Made by a program: the position numbers and the translations under genes. Under the pieces are notes generated by a model. The model was given only the letters and a program-made list of their open reading frames with translations. It made no database searches and was not told where the DNA came from. This document shows positions 59,199 through 64,000 of a DNA stretch of 64,000 nt, in pieces (positions within the stretch are counted from its first letter, which is position 1; every line of letters begins with the position of its first letter). Source of the stretch: Antarctobacter heliothermus (GTDB lineage Bacteria; Pseudomonadota; Alphaproteobacteria; Rhodobacterales; Rhodobacteraceae); contig NZ_CP022540.1 of the NCBI RefSeq assembly GCF_002237555.1, forward strand, positions 2,240,501 through 2,304,500. The letters are read 5' to 3'.

Positions 59199-61235
59199 TT
59201 AACGGCGCCAAAGATGGGCCCGGCTGGCCAGCGCGCCTTGTAGTTTTGCCAGTCCTCGGTTGAGAGGGCCGGGCGACGGAATCCTGCCGGATTTCAAACG
59301 GCTGACGACCGTTTCGACCGAACAAGGTGAAGATGTCGTAGGGTCGAAATAGCGGGGATAGTCAATCAGAGTGGCGTGGGCCAATGCGTCCAGAGTTGGG
59401 CGCGGGCCATGCAACCTGCGGGCGGGCACCGGCGCCAGATCGCGCGTCAGACCCCACCCCGCGTAAAACGGCGCGCCCAGCGTCACCACACGACATCCGC
59501 GCATCAACGCCTCGAACCCGGTGAGTGAGGTCATGGTCCAGACCTCATCGACCTCTCGCAACAGCGCGCCGATATCGCAGTTTGACAGCACGGCATCGGC
59601 CCAACGATCGGGATCGTCGACCTTGCCGGACCGCAATCCGGCTTCGACGTCGGGATGGGGTTTCCAAAGGATCACGGAGTCGGGGTTTTCGGCCCGGACA
59701 CGGGCCAGAAGATCCGCGTTTCGACCCATAGTAGGGCTGCCTGTGAGGATCGACGCGTCATCCTCGACCTGTCCGGGGACAAGAATGCGATGCCCGGGCG
59801 GGAGAGTTGGCGGATCTCCGGAAAGATTGTATTTGGATAAGCCGCCGGCCACCAGTGCCCGAACAAGGCTGTGGATACGTTGGGTTTGGTCCGGTCTCAT
59901 CTTTGACGCTCGGCGCTGAATCCACGTCTCAAGCGCCGATGTGCGGGTCGGATCGTAGTAAATTCCCGCATCATCCAGCACCAAAGAGAGCGGCGGCACC
60001 AAATCAGCGCCCAAACCGCGTGATCTGAGGAATCCATCTTCTACCCGCACCGTTTCGCCCTGTGCCTTGCCCGCCCAACACATCTGTCGGCGAGCCTCGG
60101 CCCGCGCGATGTCCCCAGCTTTACCCACATCATCTTCAAAGCGCAGGCGCTTTTGCTGGCCAAAGAATTTCTGCAACGGGGCTCTTTTCCACAGCCGCAT
60201 CCCCGAGGCGACCCAACCGGCTCGATCCTCGCGCCATGCGCGTGCGCGGGCCTCCAGCGCGCCCAGAATATCCTCAATGTCGCACAGGGTGTCGCTGTGC
60301 GGATCGTACCAACGCGGATAGAGGATCATCGCACCCGCGCAAAGCTGCGCCCGGGTCAGGGGGCGGGTCCGGCGGGCGATGACGTCTTCGTCCTCTGTAA
60401 GCCCCCATCCGGCGTAGAAGGGCAGGCCAAACACCCGAGGACGGTGCCCGGCCATGATCGCCTCAAACCCCATCTGCGAGGAGACGGTGTACACCGCCGT
60501 CGCGCCCCCCAATAGCAACCAAGGTGAGGCTGGCCCGTCATAGAGCGACACGGTCTCGCCAGTGTCGGCATCGGTGAAGTGGCCATCGCGATAGCCTGCG
60601 CCTGTTTCCGGGTGTGTTTTCAGTACGATGCGCGCGCCGGGGTTCTCCTCACGCGCGACAAACAGCATCTCCAGAAACCGCGACCGATCCGCGCCACTGG
60701 CCCGCACAGAGGCATCGCCACGGGTCTGGTCTATGACCAGAACATAGCCGGGCTCGGGCACATCGACGTCCAGCCGGGTGGCGGAATACTTGCTCAGATG
60801 CGCCTCTTGCATCCGGGCTGCAACACCGCGCGCACGGTCCAGCAGCGCGGTATCGTCCAGCGGATGCGTGTTCAGAAGCGTCTCAAGGTCGGACGGCGCG
60901 CGCCCGTCGAAATGCACGCCCGTGTGGTCGATCAACAGCCCCAGAGGCGGCTCTCCGGCGCGCCCCGGGTGCAAAGAGCGCAGAAAGGCGTCCTCGACCC
61001 GCACCAGCCCCGCGCCGGTCTTTGCGGCCATAGCCTCCCCCCGGTGGGCATAGGGGGACTGGCCCCAGACACCGATCAGGTCGCCAGCGCCGGGACGTCC
61101 CAAAGACACGCGGTAGCCCGCCAGCGACAGAATTCGCCGCAGCCTGCGCTGCCACACAAACCCGCCGTTGTAGACAAAAAAACGCCGGGGGTCGTGGCCC
61201 CCGGCGTTACCTGTCTTTTCACCCGATCCCTGCAA
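59199..61235 (-). CDS. kpsC: Capsule polysaccharide beta-Kdo transferase KpsC-like protein
   Basis: 678-residue cytoplasmic protein with two homologous transferase halves, as in KpsC, which builds the poly-Kdo linker of capsules. Repeated motifs are RRFFVYNGGF, VEDAFLRSL/VEDGFLRSR, GVHFDGRAPSDLE/GIYYDPTRTSALE, LKTHPETG/WKPHPDVE, GFEAIMAG/GFEALMRG and FYAGWGLT in both halves. Start is uncertain: TTG 61235 has no ribosome-binding site, and a terminator-like hairpin (61174-61208) falls inside the first 20 codons; GTG 61157 is an alternative but drops the VYNGG motif. It follows the interrupted export gene by 6 bases. Confidence 0.9.
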   Translation of the reverse strand: MQGSGEKTGNAGGHDPRRFFVYNGGFVWQRRLRRILSLAGYRVSLGRPGAGDLIGVWGQSPYAHRGEAMAAKTGAGLVRVEDAFLRSLHPGRAGEPPLGLLIDHTGVHFDGRAPSDLETLLNTHPLDDTALLDRARGVAARMQEAHLSKYSATRLDVDVPEPGYVLVIDQTRGDASVRASGADRSRFLEMLFVAREENPGARIVLKTHPETGAGYRDGHFTDADTGETVSLYDGPASPWLLLGGATAVYTVSSQMGFEAIMAGHRPRVFGLPFYAGWGLTEDEDVIARRTRPLTRAQLCAGAMILYPRWYDPHSDTLCDIEDILGALEARARAWREDRAGWVASGMRLWKRAPLQKFFGQQKRLRFEDDVGKAGDIARAEARRQMCWAGKAQGETVRVEDGFLRSRGLGADLVPPLSLVLDDAGIYYDPTRTSALETWIQRRASKMRPDQTQRIHSLVRALVAGGLSKYNLSGDPPTLPPGHRILVPGQVEDDASILTGSPTMGRNADLLARVRAENPDSVILWKPHPDVEAGLRSGKVDDPDRWADAVLSNCDIGALLREVDEVWTMTSLTGFEALMRGCRVVTLGAPFYAGWGLTRDLAPVPARRLHGPRPTLDALAHATLIDYPRYFDPTTSSPCSVETVVSRLKSGRIPSPGPLNRGLAKLQGALASRAHLWRR
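61174..61208 (-). terminator. Hairpin with T7 run overlapping the kpsC start region
   Basis: Minus strand: AACGCCGGGGG, 6-base loop, CCCCCGGCGTT, then T-run (61176-61182). A perfect 11-bp stem 34 bases past the export-gene stop. It lies in the first kpsC codons from TTG 61235, where the T-run encodes FF of RRFFVY. Confidence 0.75.
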
Positions 61236-61241
61236 GGGAGG

Positions 61242-62029
61242 TCAGCCCCCGGTCAGCGTGTCGGCGGCAGAGGTGATTGTGGTCACCGCGCCCAAAGTGC
61301 CGGTAAACGAGGCGATGACCTTGTTCCACTGGGTAAAGGGTGCTTCGGTCACATACAGCGTGTCCTGATCGCGGATGACGAAATCGCGCGCCATAAACAT
61401 GCCGTTGGGCTCTGTCAGGTCCAGCACATAGACCATCCGCTGTGCGCCGATTAGATCGTCGCGGCCCAGCACCTGATTGGCGATCTCTGCCGGTTCATTG
61501 CGCAGCACAAACACGCCGGTCGGATCGGCAGAGGCGGACAGCAATCCGCCGACCTGCGCGATGGCCTCAACCGCCGAGATAACCTGTGTTTCAAACGGCA
61601 CGCGGGCCTGTGTGCCGGTCGCGCCCAAGGCGGTGAAAGAGCGGGTGTCTTCCTCGACCAGAACCCGGTCGCCGCCGCGCAGGGCGATGTCGAACTTGGG
61701 GTTCTCGTAGAGGTCCTGGAACCAGATCTTGCCCTTTTGGTCGCCGCGCAGGACTGTCACCTGCGCGATTTCCGGCTGGATCGTGATGCCACCTGCGCGC
61801 GCCAGCATGGCCGACAAGGTGCGGGTGGGGCGCTCGATCGCAAAGACGCCCTGACTGCCGACCGCGCCGACAAGGCTCACGGTGGATCCGTCACCCGCCA
61901 GACGCCGCACCTCGACCTGCGGGTCGGGTGTCTGGTCTTCGAGGCGTTCGGTGATGATCTGGCGAATGCGCTCTGGCGTGTTGCCCGCCGCGCGGATGCG
62001 GCCTGCGTAGGGGACAAAGACAAAGCCCG
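61242..62029 (-). pseudogene. Wza/KpsD-like polysaccharide export protein, 3' part (split by IS element)
   Basis: C-terminal piece of a capsule/exopolysaccharide outer-membrane export lipoprotein. In frame after the target duplication it reads VFVPYAGRIRAAG, then TPERIRQIITERL and DPQVEVRRLAGDG (end of the export domain). Two SLBB-type ligand domains follow (GVFAIERPTRTLSAMLARAGG; QVISAVEAIAQVGGLL). Joining 63406-63772 to 61242-62020 gives 1,146 bases, divisible by three, and a 381-residue product. On its own this piece lacks a start and signal. Directly upstream of kpsC, so polar loss is likely as well. Confidence 0.92.
62021..62029. repeat. Target site duplication, left copy
   Basis: CAAAGCCCG, directly before the left end of the IS element; identical copy at 63406-63414. 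Nine bases, as expected for IS256-family insertions. Confidence 0.92.
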
Positions 62030-63405
62030 GAGATATGCGCAGAAGTTGGTGACGCGTGATCAGGCGGCGTTTTGAAGTTGGCGGACGCCGTCGCGGAACT
62101 CAACCCCGCTGATGACCTCCGGGAGGCGATTCCGCCCGTCGAGTTTTCGCCATTTCGTCTGAGCAGACATCATCAGCCGGAAAGCCATGGCGAGCCCAGT
62201 CTTGCGGCTGAGGCAGCCCTTGGTGCGTTTCGTCCTGTGTCTGACGGTGGCGAACGTGCTCTCGATCGGATTTGACGTCCGGATGTGTTTCCAGTGTTCG
62301 GCCGGGTAGTCGTAGAAGGTCAGTAGTGCATCCCGATCCTTGACCAACTTGGCGACTGCCTTGTCCCATTTCACGCCGTAGGCATCGACGAAGAAGTCGA
62401 AGGCGGCCGACGCCGCGGCTCGGGTTTCGGCCTGCCAGATGTCGTGCAGGTGCGCCTTGGCCTTGGCTTGCACCGATTTCGGCAGCGCGTTGAGCACGTT
62501 CATGGTTTTGTGGAGCCAGCACCGCTGCTCCTGTGTCGAGGGGAAGACCTCGCGCAGTGCCGCCCAGAACCCCAGGGCGCCGTCGCCTATGGCGAGCTTG
62601 GGATCCTGCTTCAGTCCGCGGCGTTTGAGATCGAGCAGAACCTCGCGCCAACTCTGAGTGCTTTCGCGGAAGCCGTCGGTCATGGCCAGCAGCTCCTTGC
62701 GGCCGTATTCATCCGCACCCACGATCACCAAAACGCATTGTTTTTCCTCGGCCCTTCGCGGCTTGAAATAGACGCCGTCGGCCCAGATGTAGAGAAACCG
62801 CCGGGTGCCGAGGTCACGCTTTTCCCAGGCCTCGTACTCGGACCACCAGTCCGCTTTCAGCCGCGTGATCGTAGTGGCCGAGAGGCCCTTGGCGTGTGGC
62901 CCCAGCAGGGCGGCAAGCGCCTCACTGAAATCGCCGGTGGACACGCCCTTCAGGTAAAGCCAGGGCAGCAGCTCTTCGACCGACTTTGCCTTGCGCAGAT
63001 ACCGCGGCAGGATGCTGGGCGTGAACGCGATCTTGTCCGTGCCCGGCTTGCGGTCCCGCACACGCGGCACCGTCACGGCAACAGGCCCGACACCGGTCAA
63101 AATCTCACGCTCGGGCAGGTGCCCATGACGAACCAGTCTTGCGCGACCATCCTCAAGCTTGTGATCGGCAAAGGCGCCAAGCAGCGTGGACAGTTCCGCC
63201 TCAATCGCCTGCTCGATCAGCTTGCGCGCGCCGTCCCGGATGAGGTCGGTCAGCGGGTCCGGCGAAATCCCGGATGGATCAGATAGCTGGGTGATGGTAT
63301 TCTCTTGCATGTGGCATATCCCTTTCTCGGTTGAGAATTGACGGCGCTTCGACACCGCCATGATATGTCGCCCCTCAGGGCATCACCAACTTTCGCGCAT
63401 ATCTC
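62030..63405 (-). mobile_element. IS256-family insertion sequence (1,376 bp)
   Basis: Left end GAGATATGCGCAGAAGTTGG and right end (reversed) GAGATATGCGCGAAAGTTGG match over at least 20 of 22 positions, and the next bases continue similarly (TGACGC / TGATGC). One transposase gene fills it. Flanked by 9-bp direct repeats CAAAGCCCG. Size, repeat length and transposase family agree with IS256. It sits inside a polysaccharide export gene. Perfect target duplications mean the insertion is recent or at least unrearranged. Confidence 0.95.
62060..63310 (-). CDS. IS256-family transposase
   Basis: 416-residue DDE transposase (mutator family). Recognised from DPLTDLIRDGARKLIEQAIEAELSTLLG, GPVAVTVPRVRDRK, the first Asp region YIWADGVYFKPR, the second LAIGDGALGFWAALREVFP, the WLHKTMNVLNALPKSVQ segment and the late SNPIESTFATVRHRT with the final catalytic Glu. 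ATG 63310 follows AAAGGGA; an open frame to 63361 reaches the IR region. Apparently intact, so it may be active. Confidence 0.95.
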   Translation of the reverse strand: MQENTITQLSDPSGISPDPLTDLIRDGARKLIEQAIEAELSTLLGAFADHKLEDGRARLVRHGHLPEREILTGVGPVAVTVPRVRDRKPGTDKIAFTPSILPRYLRKAKSVEELLPWLYLKGVSTGDFSEALAALLGPHAKGLSATTITRLKADWWSEYEAWEKRDLGTRRFLYIWADGVYFKPRRAEEKQCVLVIVGADEYGRKELLAMTDGFRESTQSWREVLLDLKRRGLKQDPKLAIGDGALGFWAALREVFPSTQEQRCWLHKTMNVLNALPKSVQAKAKAHLHDIWQAETRAAASAAFDFFVDAYGVKWDKAVAKLVKDRDALLTFYDYPAEHWKHIRTSNPIESTFATVRHRTKRTKGCLSRKTGLAMAFRLMMSAQTKWRKLDGRNRLPEVISGVEFRDGVRQLQNAA

Positions 63406-63414
63406 CAAAGCCCG
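63406..63414. repeat. Target site duplication, right copy
   Basis: CAAAGCCCG, immediately after the right end of the IS element; pairs with 62021-62029. Confidence 0.92.
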
Positions 63415-63772
63415 CGCCATCCACCTGAACCTCTTCGAGGATCGTGGCATTGGCGGTTTCTGCGGCCAGCAGCCCGTCGTCGACGTTTTCCCAGATCGTC
63501 AGGCCCAGCGTATCGCCGGGGCGGATCGTGTCCGATCCGAGCAGGCTGGCGTTTTTAAAGGTATCGGAAAAGCCAAGTGAGGGCACCACGGCGGTAGCGC
63601 GCGTCACCCGGTCATTGACGGAGACGATGAAGGCATCGCCTTCGCGTTGTACGGAACCGGCAAAGATTTCACGTTTGTTGGGACCAACGCGGGGCAGGCC
63701 GCAGGACGCAACAAGCGATACCGCGACCAGGAACGCGATTCCACGCGCCCACCGGGAAATGGGTTGTTTCAC
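63406..63772 (-). pseudogene. Wza/KpsD-like polysaccharide export protein, 5' part (split by IS element)
   Basis: N-terminal piece: GTG 63772 start after GGAGA, lipoprotein signal ending LVASC (lipobox Cys), then the export domain opening IRPGDTLGLTIWENVDDGLL. Translation runs about seven codons into the IS (GDMRESW) and stops at 63383, leaving a 129-residue fragment with the lipobox but without the SLBB domains, so it should not build an export pore. Confidence 0.92.
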
Positions 63773-63866
63773 TGCTCGGTCTCCTCGACCTTGTTATTCT
63801 GCCTCAGGTTTTTTGTTTAACCTACGGGACTCCGGCATTAATTGCCAGTCCGGCGTTCCGCGTGGC

Positions 63867-64000
63867 CTAGTGCACCACGCGCAACTGTTGCCGTGGGGCC
63901 GCGGTGCCATGGCTGAGCGCATCATAGGGATCATCCGGCGACAGCATCATGTCGACCACCTGCCGCAGCAGTTGCCGCCGCCCTCGGGCAGAGTAAAAAC
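63867..64000 (-). CDS. C-terminal 43 residues of the next gene (cut by window edge)
   Basis: Minus-strand frame open from the window edge to TAG 63867-63869: FYSARGRRQLLRQVVDMML, then SPDDPYDALSHG and a basic end. Too little to assign. Its place just upstream of the export gene, in the same direction, suggests another capsule-locus gene. Confidence 0.55.
   Translation of the reverse strand, partial: FYSARGRRQLLRQVVDMMLSPDDPYDALSHGTAAPRQQLRVVH

Follow-up and report, generated by a model that had tools for sequence, protein, structure and literature searches.

In Staphylococcus and in Pseudoalteromonas, IS256-family elements are reported to insert reversibly into genes essential for biofilm formation and to be excised again (excerpt of PMC5649170, where Ziebuhr 1999 is cited among others), and in the marine bacterium Pseudoalteromonas atlantica the mobilization of IS492 has been tied to variation in EPS (excerpt of PMC2536512, which refers to Bartlett 1989 and Higgins 2007). 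The locus of Antarctobacter heliothermus described here resembles the staphylococcal phase variation covered in the first of these excerpts in that an IS256-family element interrupts a surface-polysaccharide gene, and it resembles the P. atlantica case of the second in combining a marine bacterium with a link between IS mobilization and extracellular polysaccharide. It differs from the staphylococcal case in that reversibility is reported there, whereas the A. heliothermus strain of the window is known from the interrupted allele of one assembly. The kind of event is already known, marine bacteria included, and its mechanism adds nothing new; an earlier note on this DNA had offered the locus as a marine example, but as such it is not the first, being preceded both by IS492 in P. 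atlantica and by the IS256-family insertions in Pseudoalteromonas that the excerpts mention. Within the limited literature searched, we found neither a published IS-split wza with precise excision nor an IS disruption of exopolysaccharide genes in Rhodobacteraceae. IS492 belongs to a different IS family from the A. heliothermus element. It is reportedly excised precisely and at high frequency, going by the title of Higgins 2007, in contrast to the split gene described below, which is known from the interrupted allele alone.

The window analyzed here, a stretch of 64,000 nucleotides of the A. heliothermus genome, contains a wza-type gene that is read from the minus strand and lies in two parts. 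The 5' part (63406..63772) has a GTG start and 122 whole codons that hold the first part of the Poly_export domain, together with a VASC near the N terminus that we read by eye and take to be lipobox-like. The 3' part (61242..62029) has 261 codons and carries the rest of Poly_export and the SLBB domains. The outer limits of the gene, 61242 and 63772, had been placed correctly in the earlier note. Residue 122 is the last one before the split, which falls within Poly_export. The frame of the N part continues into the IS before it meets a stop, which gives a total of 129 aa, and a Pfam search with this ORF alone matched no family. The C piece in the window gives an SLBB_2 match and a partial Poly_export match (positions 35-75 of 77), and it is without a signal sequence. 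In the uninterrupted product of the type strain (P0001, 381 residues), Poly_export (PF02563, 54.3 bits, residues 82-161) and SLBB_2 (PF22461, 54.8 bits) are both found, which bears out the export motif and SLBB C terminus read earlier from the window. When P0001 is compared with the PDB, eight distinct sequences are matched, six of which are named Wza, and the best four have E values of 2.6e-26 to 3e-25. The gene product is like the Wza-type OPX proteins that serve group 2-like capsule systems containing KpsS and KpsC in its Poly_export and SLBB_2 domains, its length of 381, its sequence match to solved Wza and possibly also its lipobox-like N terminus, and kpsS and kpsC adjoin its gene.

Between the two parts of the gene lies a complete IS256-family insertion sequence of 1376 bp (62030..63405, minus strand), whose extent follows from its boundaries and terminal repeats and from near-identical copies elsewhere in the genome. 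The terminal inverted repeats, GAGATATGCGC, are perfect over 11 of 11 bases, and 23 of the first 26 bases match. The transposase (62060..63361) reads from the minus strand, the direction of the interrupted gene, and is 433 aa long with no internal stops; it scores 316 bits against the NCBIfam IS256 equivalog NF033543 (cut-off 150) and 205.9 bits against Pfam Transposase_mut PF00872 (cut-off 21, E 1.2e-60). The element is flanked on both sides by the same 9 bp, CAAAGCCCG, at 62021..62029 and 63406..63414, and we judge this duplication not to be due to chance because 11 of the 15 full copies in the genome carry an exact duplication of 8-9 bp. The matching ends, the 9-bp duplication and the complete transposase had all been recognized in the earlier note, and each holds up. 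The element shares with the IS256 family at large the kind of transposase, terminal repeats that are short and perfect, target duplications of 8-9 bp and the multicopy burst, and it differs in host and target alone.

The N piece and the C piece were searched separately against relatives; 370 loci were confirmed, and the best 80 were used. In all of these best 80 of 370 loci, the two pieces align, in a single frame, to neighboring stretches of DNA that form one 381-residue gene, the N and C matches overlap by exactly two codons, and no element is found at the equivalent site. The two-codon overlap in one frame means that the uninterrupted gene comprises 381 codons plus a stop, 382 in all, as the 9-bp duplication predicts and as joining the two pieces had already suggested. 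The closest relatives of the locus among the best 80 of 370 are Antarctobacter and Mameliella. In the A. heliothermus type strain DSM 11445, the same 9-mer, CAAAGCCCG, is present once, as an empty site, and the gene is open and encodes 381 residues. In two stretches of 6.8 kb and 0.6 kb, the DNA of this strain is 88.3% and 91.4% identical to the window, respectively, and a genome of the same genus (G001) matches the protein of the type strain at 100%. The earlier note had proposed comparison with close relatives and had held its reading open to relatives without the joined sequence; what the relatives carry is the intact 381-residue gene. The notion that the site is a recurrent target of elements in relatives was also considered, and it was rejected since there is no insertion in the best 80 of 370 loci.

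A survey of 120 family genomes at a match threshold of E 1e-55 extends this picture. The gene is matched in 108 of the 120, and the two-piece gene occurs in the A. heliothermus window genome only. The best match is near end-to-end in 105 of the 107 other genomes, although the weakest full-length matches, at about 37-45% identity, may be paralogues. The two short best matches are in G051 and in G136, where the match begins at base 4 of its contig, and four near-full-length rows among the 107 list one internal stop codon each. In a larger survey at E 1e-40, at least 271 of 295 family genomes match; the splitting rate was taken from the 120-genome set instead.

The window genome (5,331,190 bp, 4 contigs) contains 15 full copies of the element, of which 13, including the wza copy, are identical and two have one substitution; this count does not include a fragment of 243 bp (C1:3999689) or a diverged relative at C2:301 kb. 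The exact duplication found at 11 of the 15 is 9 bp in the case of the wza copy, and one of the four copies without an exact duplication (C2:46) has a duplication offset by one base. These four copies indicate that rearrangement has affected the IS population too, though not the wza copy. Four of the 15 are inserted in genes that appear to be non-mobile: wza, a gene for a flavodoxin-fold reductase, one for a response regulator and, at its 3' end, one for a chemotaxis receptor. The apparent splits outside wza are at G000:C2:15181 (L094, reductase), G000:C1:4619125 (L099, response regulator) and G000:C1:520647 (L091, receptor). Another copy (L097) sits in an IS110-type transposase gene, and one (L096) adjoins what is doubtfully an integrase-core fragment, its match being below the Pfam cut-off. 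A second, diverged IS256-family transposase with 56% protein identity is encoded on the 372-kb contig (G000:C2:301097-302281).

Outside this genome the element is less well matched. The transposase has a match at 1e-20 in four of six genus genomes, the window's own included, and the best match by score in the five others covers 355 of the 433 residues at 74%. In the type-strain-like draft G001, the transposase pieces reach about 100 residues at most and are 72-92% identical, and there is one distant match at 27%. No full-length identical transposase is found in the five other genus genomes, where some matches lie at contig ends and draft copies may be cut. The element DNA matches 8 of 40 relatives and is full length in none of them. 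Among plasmid records, from which the window genome's own may be left out, 11 match the element; nine are in the 80-90% band, at ~80-87% identity, and the hosts in this band include Paracoccus, Marinovum, Sulfitobacter and Rhodobacter. The near-identity of the 15 copies points to recent copying and, judged by this likeness, the set is a recent burst of transposition.

The explanation we favor, and consider very probable, is that an IS256-family element from this recent burst transposed into wza of the kpsS-wza-kpsC capsule cluster, so that Wza was lost and the loss was tolerated. In this mechanism, a recently active element would have transposed into the wza-type outer-membrane export gene, duplicating 9 bp and cutting the protein after residue 122 within Poly_export. 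The N part would then be made as a 129-aa lipoprotein fragment, and the C part would be left without a signal sequence. The insertion would be one product of the burst of 15 full copies, and it probably persists because loss of the gene was tolerated, or even mildly favored, in the history of the strain. The features of the element and of the uninterrupted gene strongly support the view that the split wza represents ordinary insertional inactivation. Judging from the anatomy of the gene, the split Wza is almost certainly non-functional, and since the exporter is cut within its first domain, export via the split protein should fail, as would be expected for the Wza family.

The surroundings of the gene bear on how far this loss may reach. 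A kpsC-like gene (59199..61235, minus strand; 678 aa, Capsule_synth PF05159) lies directly downstream of wza. The upstream neighbor is a kpsS-like gene of 430 aa, identified like kpsC by ORF and Pfam, whose 3' end is in the window (63867..64000, minus strand) and which extends past it (L105:8368-9660). Both frames are open. In all of the best 80 of 370 relative loci, kpsS, wza and kpsC follow one another in this order on a single strand, and ribD and/or ribE is found at 79 of these best 80; the rib and kps labels were assigned from sequence and Pfam. Where wza and kpsC meet, just past the wza stop, there is a terminator-like GC-rich hairpin followed by a T run (61181..61208, minus strand), which lies within the 5' end of the kpsC frame. 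By the rule applied (the first perfect stem of at least 8, followed by at least 4 T among the next 9 bases, within 100 bases of the wza stop), such a hairpin is present in 38 of the best 80 of 370 relatives, and kpsC may be attenuated at this putative structure. A sigma-70-like promoter was sought in 61180-64000 and none was found, the test being weak for this bacterial group.

Elsewhere in the genome, a whole-genome Pfam search found no Capsule_synth beyond the kpsS/kpsC locus. The genome contains three KpsE-like matches, all below the curated cut-off, and five ABC-2 permeases, and the arrangement differs from other Wza-type OPX systems with KpsS and KpsC in that the KpsE-like candidates and ABC-2 permeases are elsewhere, paired at C1:561-564 kb and C3:16.5-18.7 kb. 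Two further Poly_export proteins, of 381 aa and 488 aa, are encoded. The gene for the former (L147:7487-8632, minus strand) is near a YjbH gene, and its product is 33% identical to the split Wza; the gene for the latter is near a sugar transferase and near what we judge by eye to be sugar-nucleotide genes. The five other genus genomes likewise each match the split Wza query at 31-34%, and these similar identities suggest that the L147 gene is probably a conserved paralogue. The two additional Poly_export genes rule out the cluster as the sole export route, and they could allow partial compensation of export. The claim in the earlier note that the capsule path is off is thus reasonable for the split Wza itself, but it has to be softened for the cell as a whole in view of these two proteins.

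A different account of why the insertion is found in this strain is that capsule loss was itself favored, for example through phage or gene transfer agent binding or during long laboratory or diatom co-culture, with the IS burst supplying the mutation. There is a precedent in Rhodobacter capsulatus 37b4, which is capsule-less and neither binds nor receives RcGTA (excerpt of PMC10218006), and the gene is otherwise conserved, with one split among the 108 matches in 120 family genomes. However, according to the same excerpt, 37b4 misses the biosynthesis cluster rcc01081-01086 and not wza, and that cluster may be unrelated to the kpsS-wza-kpsC trio. The evidence in A. heliothermus, moreover, concerns a single locus in a single strain, in which the neighboring kpsS and kpsC remain open, and neutral loss accounts for the same data. 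On balance, we consider selected loss possible but rather unlikely.

We find it improbable that the insertion acts as a phase switch, as the earlier note had suggested, in which the element would leave wza precisely at a useful frequency and the population would consist of capsule-on and capsule-off cells. The element retains what precise loss requires: its ends are intact, its transposase is open and the 9-bp duplication is exact. With ends and duplication intact, such loss is possible in principle, and reversible insertion of IS256-family elements is reported for Staphylococcus and Pseudoalteromonas in the excerpt of PMC5649170. Against this, the assembly contains the interrupted allele alone, with one copy of each gene piece; none of the best 80 of 370 relative loci has an element at the site; and the gene is near end-to-end in 105 of 107 other family genomes, the weakest of which may be paralogues. 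The same element is also present at 14 other places in the genome, which indicates that its insertion in wza needs no special role. Given one assembly and a 15-copy burst, phase variation is not the default reading. Finally, although the copies exceed short-read length and are nearly identical, a classical cause of misassembly, an assembly error or contamination that misplaced the element among 15 near-identical copies is extremely improbable, since the wza copy is bordered by a matching 9-bp duplication of its own, its flanks show collinearity with relatives in all of the best 80 of 370 loci, and the genome is in 4 contigs, which suggests long reads. Chance repeats are likewise unlikely, in view of the matching duplication and the collinearity.

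With insertional inactivation as the preferred explanation, any annotation with a working Wza at the conserved kpsS-wza-kpsC locus in the A. heliothermus strain of the window would need correcting, and this strain is predicted to differ from its relatives in its capsule. Should the insertion instead prove to be a switch, capsulated and bare cells would be mixed and would differ in their interactions with phage, gene transfer agents or algae. If the capsule serves as a phage or gene transfer agent receptor here, as it does for RcGTA in R. capsulatus, we would be dealing with a naturally occurring capsule mutant.
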